Positions 7,209-14,895 of a stretch of DNA of 64,000 nt are shown piece after piece. The position numbers and the translations under genes were made by a program. The stretch lies in IMG/VR virus record IMGVR_UViG_3300031758_000011, positions 1 to 64,000 of that record; one strand, written 5' to 3'. Every line of letters starts with the position of its first letter. Position 1 is the first letter of the stretch. The notes below the pieces were generated by a model. The model was given only the letters and a program-made list of their open reading frames with translations, ran no database searches and was not told where the DNA came from. The DNA is from a virus.

Positions 7209-7697
7209 ATGGCTGATTTATTGATGAAAATGCCCTTACCATACGAACCTAAGAAAAAGAATCGTTGGTTATTAACTTTCCCAGCAGATTTAGGTATCCA
7301 ACAATGGTGGTTATCAACTGCTTCTAGACCTTCAATCACACAGAACGAAGTTGAGATTCCTTTCTTAAATACTTCAACATGGGTTATTGGTCGTTTTACA
7401 TGGGAATCGATTGACGTTACATTCCGTGACCCAATTGGTCCTTCAGCAGCTCAAGCTATTATGGAATGGGTTCGTTTACACTCAGAATCTATTACTGGTC
7501 GTCAAGGTTATGCTGCTGGTTACAAACGTCCAGTTGACTTAGAATTACTTGACCCAACTGGGGTTGTTATCGAGAAATGGTTATTAGATGGGACAATGTT
7601 AACAAACGTATCATTTGGTGACTTAGGGATGGATGATGACGGTATCGCTGAGATTACTGCAACATTACGTTTTGACAGAGCAATCTTATTATTCTGA
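7209..7697 (+). CDS. Tail tube protein (T4 gp19-like)
   Basis: The subunit of the inner tail tube through which DNA passes. The 162-residue length matches T4 gp19 (163). Conserved family features are visible: NRWLLTFPADLGIQQWWL, then TASRPSITQNEVEIPFLN, the WESIDVTFRDPIGPSAAQAI strand-turn, and a C-terminal block LLDPTGVVIEKWLLDG with LDFGDL-like NVSFGDLGMDDDGIAEI and a final FDRAILLF. Codon use here is less biased to A/T at third positions than in neighbours, consistent with high expression. No terminator was seen right after the stop; a host-type promoter follows within about 30 bases. Identification is firm. Confidence 0.95.
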   Translation: MADLLMKMPLPYEPKKKNRWLLTFPADLGIQQWWLSTASRPSITQNEVEIPFLNTSTWVIGRFTWESIDVTFRDPIGPSAAQAIMEWVRLHSESITGRQGYAAGYKRPVDLELLDPTGVVIEKWLLDGTMLTNVSFGDLGMDDDGIAEITATLRFDRAILLF

Positions 7698-7794: not shown

Positions 7795-8682
7795 ATGGTA
7801 ATATGTAAAGAATGTGAACGTGAGTTTGATAATTTGGATTCATTGAGAAGACATCGAACCCAAAAACATGGTGTTAATGCTGAACAAACATATATTGATT
7901 ATATTTTAAGTGGGGTTAAACCAACATGTAAATGTGGTTGTGGTGAATCAGTTAAGTTTTTATCTATTGAAAAAGGTTTTGTTGATTACATTAGAGGACA
8001 TGTTGCTAGGGTTAATAATAATTGGGGACACAATAAAGAAGTATTAAGAAAATCACATGAAACACAAAAAAAGATGCATGCATCTGGTGATTTAAAAATA
8101 TGGAATAAAGGTTTAACTATTGATGATTCAAGGGTGAAAGATAATATTGATAAGGTAATGTCAAACCAAAACCGTGGTATTAATATTTCAAAAAAACTTA
8201 AAGGTGTCCCAAAATCTCAAGAACATAAATTAAAAATACAAGAAGCTTCAGAATTAAGATGGTCTAATCCAGACGAAAGAGAAAAACAATCACATAGGTT
8301 AATAGAAAGATTGATTAAAAATAATTATAAAAATAAAAAGACTAAATTAGAAGTTACATTTCAAACATTTCTAGAAATTTTAGGTTTAATTGAAAAAAAA
8401 GATTTTACATACCAAAAACAAGTGTCATCAGCTTTATTTGATTTTTATATACACAACTCTAATTTATTAATTGAGGTTGATGGTGATTTTCACCATTGTA
8501 ATCCTAATAGTATCCATAAAATACCGACTTTTCCAATACAAATAAAAACAGTCGGTAATGATTATAGAAAAAATTTGATAGCTGAAGAGAAGGGATTCAA
8601 ATTATTAAGATTTTGGGAAAGTGATATTAAAAATAAACCAGAAGAAATTATGAGTATTTTAAGAAAAGAATTAGGTTTATGA
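7795..8682 (+). CDS. Free-standing homing-type endonuclease (zinc finger, NUMOD-like, PD-(D/E)xK/DUF559-like)
   Basis: A 295-residue protein likely to cut related phage genomes and spread its own gene. Residues 4-25 form a C2H2 finger (CKEC...HRTQKH). A second Cys-rich patch CKCGCGE near residue 43 leads into the GFVDYIRGH motif found with phage homing nucleases. NUMOD3-like segments occupy about 85-170 (GVPKSQEHKLKIQEAS). The C-terminal 100 residues have the DUF559/Vsr-like nuclease core: E227, D229, D231 and H233-H234 in LLIEVDGDFHH, D256 in VGNDYRKN, and GFKLLRFWESDI. This resembles EDxHD-type homing enzymes. It sits between tail tube and baseplate genes under its own host-type promoter, a typical homing gene setting. 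No intron boundaries were seen, so it is probably free-standing. Confidence 0.8.
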   Translation: MVICKECEREFDNLDSLRRHRTQKHGVNAEQTYIDYILSGVKPTCKCGCGESVKFLSIEKGFVDYIRGHVARVNNNWGHNKEVLRKSHETQKKMHASGDLKIWNKGLTIDDSRVKDNIDKVMSNQNRGINISKKLKGVPKSQEHKLKIQEASELRWSNPDEREKQSHRLIERLIKNNYKNKKTKLEVTFQTFLEILGLIEKKDFTYQKQVSSALFDFYIHNSNLLIEVDGDFHHCNPNSIHKIPTFPIQIKTVGNDYRKNLIAEEKGFKLLRFWESDIKNKPEEIMSILRKELGL

Positions 8683-8950: not shown

Positions 8951-10207
8951 ATGGATAAAAAACCAAATGTTTTTCCTCAAAGAGAACAACCTCAAAACAA
9001 TTTAACTGACGCTGAAAGAATAGCTAATTTTGAACAAGAAAAAGCTATGGCGACTCACGAAATTTATGAAAACGCTAAAAGTTCTGATGAATTAAGTTAT
9101 TCACATAAAAACGCAGTTGAAATGATGATGCAGCGTACCAGAGAACAAATTCAAAGAAAAAATAAACAAGGTATGGTTGTTGAACCACAACTGGCTGAAG
9201 ACGCACCTAAAAAAGTAGATGCTAATCAAGATTTGATACGTAAAAGAGATGAACAGTTAAGATTAAATCAACAGCAAACTCAAAACTATCAAAAAATGTA
9301 TGAACAATCATACAATAATGTAAATAATAACAATAATATGGAACAACAAAATAGAGTACCAAATACTCCACCACCAACTCCGCCATCAGTGCCGCCAGTT
9401 AATAACACATATGAGAATTATGGTCAAAACCCTAACAATATTGACCCATACATTTATGAGTTAAGTCAACCTAACTATAACGCACCATTTGACGTTATTC
9501 CTTTACCATCTAGAGGTAAGTTATATAGAAGTAAAAAAGCTAACATTAAAATAGCTTATATGACAACTGCTGATGAAAACATTTTATCATCACCAAACTT
9601 ATTACAAAGTGGTCAATTCTTAGAAATTTTAATCAACAGAAAAATATTGGAACCAGAAATCAGATACAAAGATTTAACTATTGGTGATAGAAACGCTATT
9701 ATGTTATGGCTTAGAGCAACAGCATATGGTGAAATGTATCCAGTAACTCTATTAGATGAATTAGATGAACCATTTGAAACTGAAATAAATTTAAATGAAC
9801 TTAAAGAAATTGAGTTAACTGCTGAACCAGATGAGAATGGTGAGTTTACATTTGAATTACCAGTAACAAAAAATGTAATTAAATTCAAAGTTTTAACTTG
9901 TGGTGACGTTGACGAACTAGAAAGAATTTTAGAAAAAGAAAAAGAAAATAAAGTATTGGTAAACAATGCGTCAACTTATAAATTAGAAAGACAAATTGTT
10001 GAAATTAATGGGAATAGAGATAAAAGATATATAAAAGATTTTGCTTCATCTATGAGAATTGCTGACGCTAAAGCATTTAATGAATATGTTGAATCAATTG
10101 AAAGTGGCATTGACCTAAACATCAATGTTCAGACCCCAGGGGGAGGGTCTATCGCCACCTTTCTTCCCCTTAGTGTCACATTTTTTTGGCCTAACATCAG
10201 ACTTTAA
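8951..10207 (+). CDS. gp26-family baseplate hub/tail chaperone protein, zero-frame part
   Basis: Residues 1-170 are a polar, Gln/Asn-rich, low-complexity region with a Pro-rich stretch (NTPPPTPPSVPPVNN). From about 180 the protein has T4 base-plate (gp26-type) family features: DVIPLPSRGKLYRSKK, MTTADENILSSPNLLQSG, LTIGDRNAIMLWLRATAYGE and, near the end, PGGGSIATFLPLSVTFFWPN. The family normally continues past FFWP, but here the frame stops at TAA 10205-10207. The missing C-terminal segment (KPILLEEIY and so on) is present in the +1 frame to 10472. I infer a fused product of about 506 residues plus this 418-residue short form. In T4, gp26 helps baseplate hub assembly; a gene pair with a frameshift just upstream of the tape measure also recalls the G/GT tail chaperones of lambda-type phages. 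The family call is good; recoding is inferred. Confidence 0.85.
   Translation: MDKKPNVFPQREQPQNNLTDAERIANFEQEKAMATHEIYENAKSSDELSYSHKNAVEMMMQRTREQIQRKNKQGMVVEPQLAEDAPKKVDANQDLIRKRDEQLRLNQQQTQNYQKMYEQSYNNVNNNNNMEQQNRVPNTPPPTPPSVPPVNNTYENYGQNPNNIDPYIYELSQPNYNAPFDVIPLPSRGKLYRSKKANIKIAYMTTADENILSSPNLLQSGQFLEILINRKILEPEIRYKDLTIGDRNAIMLWLRATAYGEMYPVTLLDELDEPFETEINLNELKEIELTAEPDENGEFTFELPVTKNVIKFKVLTCGDVDELERILEKEKENKVLVNNASTYKLERQIVEINGNRDKRYIKDFASSMRIADAKAFNEYVESIESGIDLNINVQTPGGGSIATFLPLSVTFFWPNIRL
10131..10170 (+). promoter_or_regulatory. G+C-rich H-type RNA pseudoknot, candidate recoding stimulator
   Basis: Stem 1 pairs AGACCC (10131-10136) with GGGTCT (10145-10150). The loop of stem 1, AGGGGGA (10138-10144), pairs with TTCCCCT (10164-10170) as stem 2, with one G-T wobble. 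Loop 1 is the single base C10137 and loop 3 is 13 bases, which are normal sizes for an H-type pseudoknot. 25 of these 40 bases are G or C in a strongly AT-rich genome, achieved through codons (ACC, GCC, CCC, GGG, GTC just after) that neighbouring genes rarely use. The structure ends 31 bases before the CTT TAA site. Confidence 0.55.
10202..10207 (+). other. Candidate +1 ribosomal frameshift site CTT TAA
   Basis: Zero-frame CTT is followed by the stop TAA; a +1 slip of the Leu tRNA from CTT to TTT gives AAG next and joins the gp26-family halves as FFWPNIRL-KPILLEEIY. This has the same layout as the bacterial release factor 2 site (CTT TGA). No Shine-Dalgarno-like stimulator lies 3-6 bases upstream, unlike prfB. 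A slip slightly earlier, at CCT A (10190-10193), would give FFWP-TSDFKP and cannot be excluded. Confidence 0.5.
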
Positions 10208-10472
10208 GCCTATTTTATTAGAGGAGATTTATATATGTACGCAATATTTGAAAAACGTCACTTATAATGACGTTTTATCAATGCCTACATATGAAAGAAG
10301 ATTCTTTTTAAATATGTTAATAAAGGAGACCAAAGAAAAAGAAGAACGGATTGAAGAGATGAAGGAGAAGGAAACCAAATCTAAAACGACTGGAAAAGGT
10401 AGTAGAGAAACTAGAGTTTCTGGAGAAGCATTAAAAACACAAATGAAAAATGGTATGATACCATTACAATAA
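10206..10472 (+). CDS. gp26-family protein, +1-frame C-terminal extension
   Basis: This frame is open from at least 10125, but the stretch before about 10200 reads as an unlikely sequence (MFRPQGEGLSPP). From AAG at 10206 it gives KPILLEEIYICTQYLKNV, then TYNDVLSMPTYERRFFLNML and a highly charged Lys/Glu tail, ending KNGMIPLQ. This is what a gp26-type baseplate protein should carry after FFWP. It has no good start site of its own: ATG 10125 gives a non-family N-terminus and ATG 10281 would truncate the domain. I therefore list it as the extension made by a +1 shift at CTT TAA (10202-10207). An indel error in the assembly would look the same. Confidence 0.75.
   Translation, partial: KPILLEEIYICTQYLKNVTYNDVLSMPTYERRFFLNMLIKETKEKEERIEEMKEKETKSKTTGKGSRETRVSGEALKTQMKNGMIPLQ
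10252..10276 (+). other. 9-bp RNA hairpin within the +1-frame coding region
   Basis: AAAACGTCA (10252-10260) pairs perfectly with TGACGTTTT (10268-10276) around a 7-base loop. It begins 44 bases after the slip site, which is too far for a standard downstream stimulator, but it may form part of a larger recoding structure or simply an internal hairpin. Confidence 0.35.
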
Positions 10473-10473
10473 G

Positions 10474-10497
10474 TCCCCATTTTAATGGGGATTTTTT
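10474..10497 (+). terminator. Rho-independent terminator after gp26-family gene
   Basis: Stem CCCCAT/ATGGGG with loop TTTA, then six T. It lies directly after the stop of the +1-frame extension (10472), showing that the transcription unit includes that extension and supporting it as real coding sequence. Confidence 0.8.
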
Positions 10498-10531: not shown

Positions 10532-12157
10532 ATGGATAAAAAGATAGTCATAACCGAATCACAGTTTAATAGACTTAAAAATTTAATTAAAGAGCAATTA
10601 TTGTTGGAAGATAAGTTATTCAACCAAATTTCTGCTAGATTGCGAAACGTGACAATAAAAGATGAAAATGATGCAATGGAATTTTTATCAAAATCAGAAA
10701 ATAAACCAGTGTTTGATTATATTCAAAACGCTGTAAATAATTCATTAAACGCTAGAGTACCAAAACAAAAAGCTCAATACATCAAAGACCTTAAAACTAA
10801 ATTAAAAGCGGTTTTTAAAATGCTACAGAAACCAGAAAATGAAGTTGACGCTAGTATGGCAAATCTTTTGAATGGTTACGCTAAATCTAAAAAAGTTAAT
10901 AGTTTTGATGCTATTGTTGAAATGTTAAAAACTTCAAATACATCTGGTAACCAAGCGTCAAAAGCTAAATCAATTGATGATTTATTAGATAAACCAATGG
11001 GTCCATCTAATCAGCAAAAACAAGAACCTAATCAAACTAATGCGGTTGCTGCTGATAACGAAAATAAAGAAAGTGTTAACATTAATCAAATGATTTATGA
11101 TTTCGTTGATACTTTAAATGGGTTAAAGGAAAATGATGTTTTAACTATTAAGTTACCTAGAATGGATACTATGAAATTAACGTGTATTAATAATACATCT
11201 AAATATAGTATTTTTTTCAAACTAGCTGATGACGTAGATACAGCAACAGAAAAAATTGAATTACCTAAAATACCAGAAAAATATAAATTCGATGAAAATA
11301 GCCCAGTACCAAATTTTGAAGTCCCATCAATTGAATATATTAACGATGAAGGCACGATAACTAAAAAAAGTGAATTAATCAAAGGTATATACGAATGGGA
11401 TATTGATGAAGCTGGTGGTGAAGAGCAAAGTGATGAAGAACAAAACGGTGAAGAACTTACCACAGATGAAATTGAAAACGACATAGATGACCCTAATGTA
11501 AGTCTTGAAAATTTCATGGATGATATTATGAGTGATGAATCTAATGAAACTAAAAGTAATGCTTTAGATTTATATAGGTTAATAAAAAAAGATAAAGATT
11601 TTATGGAGGTCCAAGGTGGTAAAAACCCTTCATTTCTGAAATTATTATTTGCTAATTTAACTGGTAAAAAGATTGAACCTAGAAGAGGTAATATACCAGT
11701 GTTGAATAGTATTAGCAAAGTTTTTGATGATAGGATAACTAATAAGTTAGGTGAAAATTTTATTGAGAATAAAACAGTATTTTTCAAACCCTTAGAAACA
11801 ATAGAATTACCTTATGTTCAAATGGAGTGGGACGCTACTGATAGAGTGCGTAAACCTATTAACAAAATATTTGAATTAAAAGCTAATTCTGAGTATACAT
11901 TTAGAGACGCTGTAAAAGTTAAACAATTTTCAATTGATTCATTAAAATATGGAGAATACAGAGTATTGGAAAATGCTTATAATAAATTTAGAATCATTGT
12001 CAAAGAGAAATCAACCCAACCTCATACATTTAATTGTGATGTGTTTAAATATTATACAGATGCAGCAAATAATCAAAAGGTTTCAAAGAAAACAAATGTT
12101 TTAATTGAATTTTTAGATTCTGATGGTTATAAAATAAACAAAGTTAATACCAATTAA
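10532..12157 (+). CDS. Unknown acidic tail-region protein with ITESQFNRL N-terminus
   Basis: A 541-residue protein located between the gp26-family gene and the tape-measure-like gene, 2 bases ahead of the latter, so the two are very likely co-expressed. It starts MDKKIVITESQFNRLKNL, related to the start of the 131-residue protein at 6720. Residues 30-160 look helical, then a Gln/Asn-rich linker, a beta-rich part near 190-290, a very acidic stretch near 290-340 (EEQSDEEQNGEELTTDEIEND), and a mixed C-terminal domain from about 345. No enzymatic motif is seen. Position suggests a role in hub or tail-length assembly, but it is not assignable to a family. Confidence 0.6.
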   Translation: MDKKIVITESQFNRLKNLIKEQLLLEDKLFNQISARLRNVTIKDENDAMEFLSKSENKPVFDYIQNAVNNSLNARVPKQKAQYIKDLKTKLKAVFKMLQKPENEVDASMANLLNGYAKSKKVNSFDAIVEMLKTSNTSGNQASKAKSIDDLLDKPMGPSNQQKQEPNQTNAVAADNENKESVNINQMIYDFVDTLNGLKENDVLTIKLPRMDTMKLTCINNTSKYSIFFKLADDVDTATEKIELPKIPEKYKFDENSPVPNFEVPSIEYINDEGTITKKSELIKGIYEWDIDEAGGEEQSDEEQNGEELTTDEIENDIDDPNVSLENFMDDIMSDESNETKSNALDLYRLIKKDKDFMEVQGGKNPSFLKLLFANLTGKKIEPRRGNIPVLNSISKVFDDRITNKLGENFIENKTVFFKPLETIELPYVQMEWDATDRVRKPINKIFELKANSEYTFRDAVKVKQFSIDSLKYGEYRVLENAYNKFRIIVKEKSTQPHTFNCDVFKYYTDAANNQKVSKKTNVLIEFLDSDGYKINKVNTN

Positions 12158-12159
12158 TA

Positions 12160-14895
12160 ATGGCTAAAAGTAGAAAACAAATAGAAGAAGAAGCTAGGAT
12201 AGTTTTGCAAATGCTTGAGAAACAAGTTAATTTGCAAAATAGTGTTAATAGTAGTTATGATAAATATATTGAAGCGGTAAAGAAATATAAAGATATTCAA
12301 GCTACTTTAACCAAATCTTTAGAACTAGAAAGAAAAACTCAAGCTAAAGTTGATAAAGAAATTGCTGATAGAAAAAGAGGTATTATTAACTTAACTGATG
12401 AAGAATTAGAAAAAGAAAAAATCAAATTAGAAATTCTAAAGAAACAGAATGTTCAATTAGATTTACAGCGTGAAATGTATCATGATACATTAAAAGAAGT
12501 TAAAGCTATAAACCTTGCGTTAACTAATTCTGTTTTACCTACTTTAAAAGCCATGGAAAAAATTCCAGGACTTTTTAAAGGTGCGTATAACAGTTTAAAA
12601 GGGTTAGGGTTATTTGAAATGGATAAAGCGATGAAGCAATCAGCTTTATCAATGGGTATCCTAAGTAAAGAATCTGCTGGTTTTAGAGGTTCTATAGTTT
12701 CTGCTGCTAAACAAACAGCTATTATTGGTGTTGGTGTTAAAGAATTATCACAAATACAAGCACAATATAGTGAAGGTGTAGGTACAACAGCTTTAATGTC
12801 TGAAAAGACGTTAAAATCGTTAGGAGAGATGGCTGTGGCTACTGGGTTAGGTGTTGAAGGTACATCTCAAATGGCTATGGATATGCGTAACCAAAACATA
12901 GCAGCTGAAAGTACTGTTAAATTTGTTCAACAAACGATGAACGATTCGCATAAAATGGGTGTTGATGCAACTAAAGTAGTTAAACTAATTTCTAAGAATA
13001 TAAAAATGCTAAACAAATACAATTTCAAAGATGGAGTTAAAGGTTTAGCTAAAATGGCAGAAACAATAACTAAATTAGGTGTTGATATGGAATTTGCGGC
13101 TGGTTTTGCTGATAAACTTTGGGATGTTGAAGGCGCTGTTAACATGTCAGCTCAATTACAAGTTATGGGTGGTGCGTGGGCTCAAATGGCTGACCCATTC
13201 CACTTGATGTATATGGCTCGTAATGATATGGCTGGATTGACTGAAGAGATTGGTAAGGCTGCTGAACAATCGGTTATATTCAACAAGAAAACTGGTCAAT
13301 TTGATATGTCAGCAAAAGAGATGCATAGATTAAAAATCATTGCTGAACAAACTGGTATCGCTTATGATGATTTAGTTACGGCTGGTAAGAATGCTAAGAA
13401 ATTCAGCATGATTAAATCACAAGTTAATTTTGATTTTGGTGGTGATAAAGACCTTAAAGAATATGTTACTAACAAATCCTTCATAGATGAAAAAGGTAAC
13501 GCTAAAATAGTAATTAATGGGGAGACTAAGTTATTGAAGACTTTATCTCAACAAGATAAAAATATTTTGAAAACACAAATGTCTGAACAAGCGTCATTAA
13601 GAGCTAGAGCAGAAGAAGCTCAATCTTTTGATGATACTTTATCAAACTTGATGATGCAATTAAAAATATTTTTATTACCTTTAATAACTAAACTTAGTGA
13701 CCCTAAAACTGGTCTGGTATCAAAATTACAAAAATTTTCAGATAGTTTAAATAAAAAAGGTGGTTTTGGACAAACAATTGAAAAAGTAGCCGAATGGTTT
13801 GGTAACATTGTTAATGCTTTTGGTGAATTTATGGTTGAACATCCAGTGTTGGTTGCAACAATCGCTGGTTTCACCAAATCAATACCATTATTGATTGGTG
13901 CTTTTAAATTGTTTGGTGGTCTTTTTAACGCTGCTAAATGGTTTTTAAATGGTATTGCCTTATCTAAAGGGTTCATGTTGGGAACTGGTGGAGGAATGGG
14001 TATGGGTATGGGTCGTGGTCCTATAGGTGGCGGTATGGCTAATTCAATGTTTAGAATGGGTGGCGGAGCTGCTTATGGTACACCTGGAGGTATGATTGGA
14101 CCAGCTTTACCTAAACCAGGGTTTGGTGCTAATTTTAAAGCTGGTCTTGGTTCAGCTGGTGCTATTAGTGGTGGTTTATTAGCTGGTGGTATTGCTGGTT
14201 TTGGTGAATACGGTGAACAAAAAGAAAAAGGTAAAGGTGCTGGTGAGGCTATCGGTAGAGGTGTATTAAAAGGATTAGGAGCTGGTGCTGGTGCGTGGGG
14301 TGGTGCGGCTGCTGGTGCTGCGCTTGGTACTATGTTATTACCAGGTATTGGTACTATAGTTGGTGGTTTAATAGGTGGTATGGCTGGGGGTTCTATTGGT
14401 GGTACAGTAGGTGATTTAGATACTTATGGTGTTAATGACGCTATATTTACTAACCCTATAAATGATGGGTTTAGTATTAGTAAGCCTAGTAAAATGATGT
14501 CTAGAAAATTTGGTACTAATTATTCAAAAGGTAAAGGTATATTTAATAATGGTACTATAACACCGATACATAACGCTGATAAAGTAAAAGCTATAATGGC
14601 TAGCAAACCTGGAGGTGGAATTGATAGATATGAACGAGAAATGTTTAATAAATCAACAAATACGCAACAACAAGTCGTATCAACTTCAAATAGACATACA
14701 TTTGACCCTATTAGCGGTAGTCTTACAGTTGAAATTCCAGGACTAAATAATAAATCGTTTACTGTTGAAGAAAAAGAACAATTATTTGAAGAAATAAGAG
14801 AAAAATTGAAAAGAAGAGTAACTGAGGACGTTACTTATACTAACAATAAAACTAAAAATGGTGGAAAATTAAAACCTATGCCAGCTAAATCTTAA
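12160..14895 (+). CDS. Tape-measure-like tail protein
   Basis: A 911-residue protein that probably sets tail length and occupies the tube lumen. The first 130 residues are a charged coiled coil (KQIEEEARIVLQMLEKQ and on). Residues 140-460 are Ala/Met/Gly-rich and helical (SMGILSKESAGFRGSIVSAA, MAVATGLGVEGTSQMAMDMR). Residues 500-620 contain hydrophobic segments (MLLPLITKL-like and VLVATIAGFTKSIPLLIGAF). Residues 620-770 form a Gly/Met/Ala-rich stretch (GGGMGMGMGRGPIGGG; GAGAGAWGGAAAGAALG) as in tape measures that insert into membranes. Position after the gp26-family pair agrees with tape measure order in many phages. T4 gp29 is shorter (about 590). Family membership is by composition and context. 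Confidence 0.7.
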   Translation: MAKSRKQIEEEARIVLQMLEKQVNLQNSVNSSYDKYIEAVKKYKDIQATLTKSLELERKTQAKVDKEIADRKRGIINLTDEELEKEKIKLEILKKQNVQLDLQREMYHDTLKEVKAINLALTNSVLPTLKAMEKIPGLFKGAYNSLKGLGLFEMDKAMKQSALSMGILSKESAGFRGSIVSAAKQTAIIGVGVKELSQIQAQYSEGVGTTALMSEKTLKSLGEMAVATGLGVEGTSQMAMDMRNQNIAAESTVKFVQQTMNDSHKMGVDATKVVKLISKNIKMLNKYNFKDGVKGLAKMAETITKLGVDMEFAAGFADKLWDVEGAVNMSAQLQVMGGAWAQMADPFHLMYMARNDMAGLTEEIGKAAEQSVIFNKKTGQFDMSAKEMHRLKIIAEQTGIAYDDLVTAGKNAKKFSMIKSQVNFDFGGDKDLKEYVTNKSFIDEKGNAKIVINGETKLLKTLSQQDKNILKTQMSEQASLRARAEEAQSFDDTLSNLMMQLKIFLLPLITKLSDPKTGLVSKLQKFSDSLNKKGGFGQTIEKVAEWFGNIVNAFGEFMVEHPVLVATIAGFTKSIPLLIGAFKLFGGLFNAAKWFLNGIALSKGFMLGTGGGMGMGMGRGPIGGGMANSMFRMGGGAAYGTPGGMIGPALPKPGFGANFKAGLGSAGAISGGLLAGGIAGFGEYGEQKEKGKGAGEAIGRGVLKGLGAGAGAWGGAAAGAALGTMLLPGIGTIVGGLIGGMAGGSIGGTVGDLDTYGVNDAIFTNPINDGFSISKPSKMMSRKFGTNYSKGKGIFNNGTITPIHNADKVKAIMASKPGGGIDRYEREMFNKSTNTQQQVVSTSNRHTFDPISGSLTVEIPGLNNKSFTVEEKEQLFEEIREKLKRRVTEDVTYTNNKTKNGGKLKPMPAKS

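Follow-up and report, generated by a model that had tools for sequence, protein, structure and literature searches.

A frame break in a gp26-like tail gene

The gp26-like gene that begins at ATG 8951 on the + strand of the window (the whole 64-kb stretch analysed, positions 1 to 64,000 of the 126.5-kb IMG/VR record IMGVR_UViG_3300031758_000011) raises the question of whether, where and how ribosomes change reading frame within it. Its zero frame (8951..10207; short form, the putative tail assembly chaperone N form or TAC-N) stops at TAA 10205-10207 after 418 codons, giving a product that ends in ...PGGGSIATFLPLSVTFFWPNIRL. The +1 frame reads KPILLEEIY...SMPTYERRFFLN as far as TAA 10470-10472 and holds a TAC-C-like domain of 94 aa (10188..10472, + strand; GLTSDFKPILLEEIY...IPLQ), recognised by its openness and its conservation in relatives. 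An original prediction, made from the sequence alone, had proposed a programmed +1 frameshift with a short form of 418 residues and a long form of about 506. Its coordinates and both coding stretches were all correct when checked on the sequence, and a fusion made through the run of seven T (T7) at 10181..10187 is predicted to comprise 412 zero-frame residues plus 94, or 506 aa. The terminator that it had placed immediately behind the +1 stop was also recovered, as a Rho-independent terminator-like hairpin read from the sequence at 10474..10497 on the + strand (CCCC/GGGG, then a T-run), a layout shared by relatives L002-L005. The gp26-family gene is single-copy in the 126.5-kb record, in which no second, separate copy of the +1 domain was found.

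The gene belongs to the gp26/gp51 family, probable tail chaperones

We examined both frames for homology. The zero-frame protein matched PF12322 T4_baseplate (E = 2.6e-6, 27.7 bits, cut-off 24.5) and the baseplate hub family phrog_150 (E = 3.6e-8), in line with the gp26 family membership first suggested. The gp26 domain occupies about 9488-10204 (+), behind a variable N-terminal extension. This extension (8951-9480, +) is about 170 aa long and Gln/Asn/Pro-rich; Flavobacterium phage immuto, whose protein has 246 aa, and other distant relatives lack it. In BFVD, the AlphaFold model of the zero-frame domain (pLDDT 90) had matches to the baseplate hub subunit of SP-15 and to T4-like proteins labelled 'baseplate hub assembly'. 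The +1 domain is small and helical (AlphaFold pLDDT 82). Its profile matched the C-terminal domains of T4 gp51, P-SSM2, S-PM2, HTVC008M and phiM12 (hhalign 95.7%, E = 1e-8), and in some members it matched phrog_634 'baseplate hub assembly catalyst' (E = 1.2e-5). The N domain is thus homologous to PF12322 proteins and the C domain to the C-terminal part of gp51. Some +1 domains of A6 members (29 sequences) matched DUF6760 (PF20546, best E = 2e-5), so further chaperone C domains may be found within this family.

The gene also has the position expected of this chaperone family, between the tail tube and the tape measure. The tail tube gene lies at 7209 and the tape measure gene, whose protein is the expected chaperone client, at 12160..14895 (+; phrog_167, E = 3.1e-17). 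Two genes are inserted in this order: a homing-endonuclease-like gene between the tube and chaperone genes (7795-8682, +; DUF559, HNH/homing endonuclease PHROGs, zinc-finger-like start), and an unassigned ORF of 541 aa between the chaperone gene and the tape measure (10532-12157, +), for which we found no Pfam and no PHROG match.

Fold and sequence searches of the PDB gave no significant match. The N domain hit no solved tail-chaperone fold, and for the C domain no fold match reached significance. The chaperone role is therefore argued from sequence homology, position and a G/GT-like layout. As the +1 domain matches the gp51/cyanophage C-terminal domain, the locus appears to be a tail-assembly-chaperone system of the G/GT type, which supports the tail assembly role originally proposed. 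We conclude with good confidence that the gene is a tail assembly chaperone of a contractile-tailed T4-like phage.

The frame break is conserved among relatives

Comparison with relatives was one of the checks that the original prediction had called for. A protein search of IMG/VR returned six relatives and a profile search 424, and a second profile search was then added. All 79 loci spanning the site have a zero frame that closes a few codons past FFWP and a +1 frame that carries the continuation GLT..YK...EEI..C.....Y.DV..MP..ERR. Counting only protein-found relatives that cover the site (72 distinct sequences), the break falls at TTTTTTTGGCCT in 159 of 159, and every one of these loci has T7GGCCT. 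This count is not circular, because the searches relied on amino-acid patterns that lie well upstream. A DNA-pattern search brought in further groups, which carry T7GGCCT by construction and were kept for other tests only.

Far more distant relatives (27-35% identity) also continue in the +1 frame (16/16), with the slip sequence T7GG in 14, T8C in one and TTC TTT TGG in one. Phages immuto, Mel-JY01, RM378, SP-15, GXN1 and LIS04 have a +1 continuation at the equivalent place. A near-identical contig from a different assembly, L001, has the same break and, relative to the window, an in-frame insertion of 6 nt in the +1 domain. The +1 domain is open and conserved in every relative except three loci, two of them cut by contig ends. 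In the third, L046, the +1 frame is broken after ...ERRYF by an apparent one-base error; the near-identical L047 and L048 are intact, and the L046 break is likely a contig error. The frame break is confirmed, and with a break and slip codons conserved in both the close and the distant set, the frameshift is almost certainly programmed.

Seven of the distant +1-type relatives (L310, L313, L315, L318, L320, L321 and L322) are in MAGs named Flavobacteriales, Winogradskyella or Flavobacteriaceae. These names hint at Bacteroidota hosts, binning being weak evidence.

The shift is confined to a run of seven T

The original prediction had placed the slip at CTT TAA (10202-10207), by analogy with release factor 2 genes. 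This sequence is present in the window and is not conserved in relatives. In nearly all of them the codon preceding the zero-frame TAA is GTA, CTA, TTA or ATA, so CTT directly before the stop, as in a prfB-type site, is not a conserved trait; some have a zero-frame stop TGA, TAG or TAA two codons earlier. Codon evolution also points upstream. Past GGCCT, still ahead of the zero stop, variability peaks at the third positions of the +1 frame and the third positions of the zero frame rank with the most conserved, indicating that the +1 frame is already under selection there. Non-conservation, a moving zero stop and this +1-frame codon evolution together rule out CTT TAA as the slip site.

The upstream limit is set by +1-frame stops. 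Such a stop lies 11 nt ahead of the run in 26 of 87 other-clade sequences and a single codon ahead of T7 in L318 and L313, and RM378 has a +1-frame TGA just upstream of the run. Often there is no ATG, GTG or TTG between the last upstream +1 stop and +60. Taken with +1 selection from GGCCT onward, these stops confine the shift to the T-run, 10181-10189, and there can be little doubt that the slip occurs at T7. The original prediction had listed this run merely as a possible sequencing indel; the run is real and is where the shift lies. Strong codon conservation had also prompted us to consider a slip further upstream, at TTTCTTCC. That site was rejected because RM378 and the 26 other-clade sequences have their +1 stops just ahead of T7, which places their shift at the run.

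The slip window in the studied sequence is T7-GG, 10181-10189 (+). The run is exactly seven T, phased TTT TTT TGG, and the base before it is T in 0/168 sequences. This phase puts TTT 10181-10183 in the E site, TTT 10184-10186 in the P site and TGG 10187-10189 in the zero-frame A site, with T 10187 the base that would be skipped. On the + strand of the 64-kb window TTTTTTTGG occurs once. Runs of seven T number 8 on the + strand and 66 on the - strand.

Ribosomal +1 slippage is favoured over other mechanisms

For T7 members alone, a -2 slip or transcriptional slippage would yield the identical frame, and family members that lack the run were therefore informative. The +1 layout is kept in immuto (TTT CTT TGG), SP-15 (TTT TTT CAC), GXN1 (TTC TTT CGT) and L322 (TTC TTT TGG). 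Across this comparison +1 ribosomal slippage appears to be the sole mechanism that fits all members, and we consider it very likely the correct one, rather than -2 or transcriptional slippage.

Ribosomal frameshifting by -2 on T7 would add one extra Phe, with a predicted junction of ...SVTFFFGLTSDFK (FFF-GLT). The run permits TTT to re-pair with TTT two bases back, the immuto sequence is compatible with such a move, and Mu is known to reach the +1 frame by a -2 shift (PMC5009743). GXN1, L322 and LR756508 (TTT CTA), however, re-pair well for +1 and mismatch within the codon for -2, in GXN1 and L322 at the middle base. A -2 shift is thus improbable. Programmed transcriptional slippage, in which RNA polymerase drops one U at T7 to give two mRNAs and two proteins, would suit the conserved homopolymer that almost every member has where the shift occurs. 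Against it, a run of exactly seven with no preceding T is short beside known cases, which have T runs longer than 8 (PMC3711429); the +1 layout persists in members without a long run, GXN1 and L322 having no homopolymer of five or more on which a polymerase could slip; and the conserved 5' RNA structure described below is a better fit to translation. We regard this explanation as slightly less probable still than the -2 shift.

The window has a +1-frame ATG at 10125, and Mel-JY01 is annotated as two genes, as would be expected if the +1 ORF were a second gene translated from its own internal start. This ATG is not conserved, however, and many relatives have +1 stops between it and the conserved part. 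No ATG, GTG or TTG occurs from the last +1 stop to +60 in 22/87 other-clade and 7/81 clade sequences, and +1-frame selection begins right at GGCCT. Because +1 stops sit just before T7, often with no start codon after them, we exclude an internal start as very improbable. Finally, the homopolymer at the break and the one-base contig error exemplified by L046 might invite a reading as a sequencing or assembly error, or as a pseudogene in decay. Either is scarcely credible, as the break recurs in hundreds of assemblies of independent origin and in several phage isolates, and both frames are conserved; L001 and the 159 concordant relatives rule out assembly error.

A candidate RNA element lies upstream of the slip site

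Compared with synonymous shuffles, the 60 nt upstream of the run have a more stable predicted fold (mean z -2.2 for the clade of the window and -1.5 for other clades), whilst the signal for a downstream stimulator was weak (z -0.4 and -0.9). The helix with the best support was a candidate hairpin, P1, at 10131..10150 (+), in which AGACCC (10131-10136) would pair with GGGUCU (10145-10150) around a G-rich loop. A P1 helix of at least 6 bp could be formed in 78% of 59 nonredundant relatives; swapping the partners lowered this to 42%, and synonymous shuffles gave 5%. Among relatives, the closing pair 10131-10150 is GC in 27, AT in 14, CG in 4 and TA in 1. RNAalifold gave no useful consensus for the upstream region, because the stem register shifts by one base in a subgroup. 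An additional outer stem, GAGGUU/AACCUC, was discarded, being present in some relatives only and without significant covariation.

A second candidate helix (10139..10167, +) would pair GGGGG of the P1 loop (10139-10143) with CUUCC (10163-10167). Its cells are paired in 98.5% of cases compared with 91.6% in synonymous shuffles, and CTT is invariant in this stretch even though it makes up 25% of Leu codons. The G-rich loop and CUUCC may thus form a pseudoknot that ends 13 nt ahead of T7, with which alternative folds compete.

Codon usage next to the run is constrained as well. In TTT CTT CCN CTT AAC, before the run, synonymous sites are invariant bar the third base of CCN, and codon identity is 1.0 compared with a baseline of 0.62 (sd 0.14). 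CTC occurs, within the 230 codons sampled, only in the stretch before the run, and GGG is over-used in PGGGS. Just 5' of T7, the synonymous sites of TTTCTTCCNCTTAACNTC (10160-10178) hardly vary within the clade. The proposed fold accounts for this invariance only partly, and some of the synonymous conservation of CTTAACNTC ahead of T7 still lacks an explanation. Taken together, these observations suggest that an RNA fold immediately 5' of the slip site stimulates the shift.

Comparison with known frameshift systems

The gp26 genes of P-SSM2, S-PM2, HTVC008M and phiM12 shift by -1, with a T-run phased T_TTT_TT(T/C), in contrast to the TTT_TTT_T-GG and +1 shift of the gene studied here. The -1 slip site, a trait of the cyanophage and phiM12 groups and not of the whole family, is absent from our gene, and T4 has two separate genes, 26 and 51. 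Frameshift polarity therefore differs within one gene family. In the huge phage LR756511 the gp26-like gene seems to go on in the -1 frame at GGT TTT TTC; LR756508, a relative of LR756511, is +1.

In 2022 (Virology 566:9-15), Vladimirov, Gautam and Davidson are reported to have identified gp26/gp51-type chaperones in T4-like phages, several groups using a frameshift and T4 keeping two distinct genes. The chaperones of that work share the family (PF12322 and phrog_150, with a C domain resembling the gp51 C terminus, phrog_634) and the tail-module place of our gene. What appears to be new here is the +1 polarity, the T7-UGG motif and the conserved candidate 5' RNA fold. The original prediction knew of no frameshift case for gp26-type T4-like genes; such genes had been proposed as frameshifting chaperones in the 2022 work, which later papers cite for the identification of T4-like tail chaperone genes (PMC12846349, PMC10885494). 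A 2016 review of frameshifting stated that the G/GT shift is used by long-tailed phages other than T4 (PMC5009743).

Like lambda gpG/gpGT and the HK97-, P2- and Mu-type systems, the gene lies upstream of the tape measure and would yield a short form and, by frameshift, a long form that gains a C domain. Lambda and P2 shift by -1 and Mu by -2, unlike the +1 seen here, and no sequence similarity was detected between the N domain and lambda-, HK97-, P2- or Mu-type tail frameshift proteins. The chaperone locus of Vandenendeviridae/Andersonviridae (phage Adele) uses GTTTTT and -1 (PMC12846349). Shifts of +1 are rare, with haloarchaeal virus HSTV-2 a very likely case (PMC5009743). Listeria phage PSA also uses +1 frameshifting in a tail-module gene but at CCC_UGA sites, a proline codon with a stop, and for a structural tail/capsid protein (PMC5009743). 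At the prfB site (CTT TGA) of release factor 2, too, the P-site tRNA moves by +1 on a codon rich in U and the A-site codon is slow; our gene differs in having no A-site stop, no Shine-Dalgarno at 3 nt and no autoregulation.

A model for two products from one chaperone gene

The best overall explanation, judged from comparative sequence evidence, is very likely a two-product chaperone gene with a +1 slip on T7. A programmed shift into the +1 frame, as first proposed, agrees with the conserved break and with selection on that frame. Most ribosomes would remain in the zero frame until TAA 10205, yielding the short form of 418 aa. In a minority, peptidyl-tRNA-Phe would sit on the second TTT of TTT TTT TGG with the slow UGG in the A site, and would slip one base forward within T7, the E- and P-site tRNAs both re-pairing on UUU. 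Reading would resume as GGC CUA ACA..., giving the 506-aa fusion that ends in the helical gp51-C-terminus homologue. Its predicted junction is ...SVTFFGLTSDFK, with two Phe ahead of GLTSDFK (FF-GLTSDFK). By analogy with lambda gpG/gpGT, the short form would coat the tape measure and the long form would join it to tube or baseplate subunits, and the same G/GT logic predicts an output of much short form and little fusion.

A more speculative and rather doubtful proposal is that a fold, hairpin or H-type pseudoknot, re-forms behind the ribosome at T7 and pulls the mRNA backwards to give +1, and that a phase change in one T-run switched shift polarity between T4-like lineages. If true, the backward-pulling fold would be a stand-in for the Shine-Dalgarno pull of prfB and a mirror image of the downstream pseudoknots of -1 sites. 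The candidate 5' RNA fold is a directly testable stimulator.

The +1 chaperone frameshift is widespread and apparently unannotated: gene callers either separate the C domain or overlook it, and the fusion is unannotated in immuto and Mel-JY01. TTT TTT TGG is a very widely conserved +1 signal in environmental phages, for which +1 motifs have so far been ill defined. One gene family thus appears to reach the same protein pair by +1 frameshifting, by -1 frameshifting or by two separate genes.
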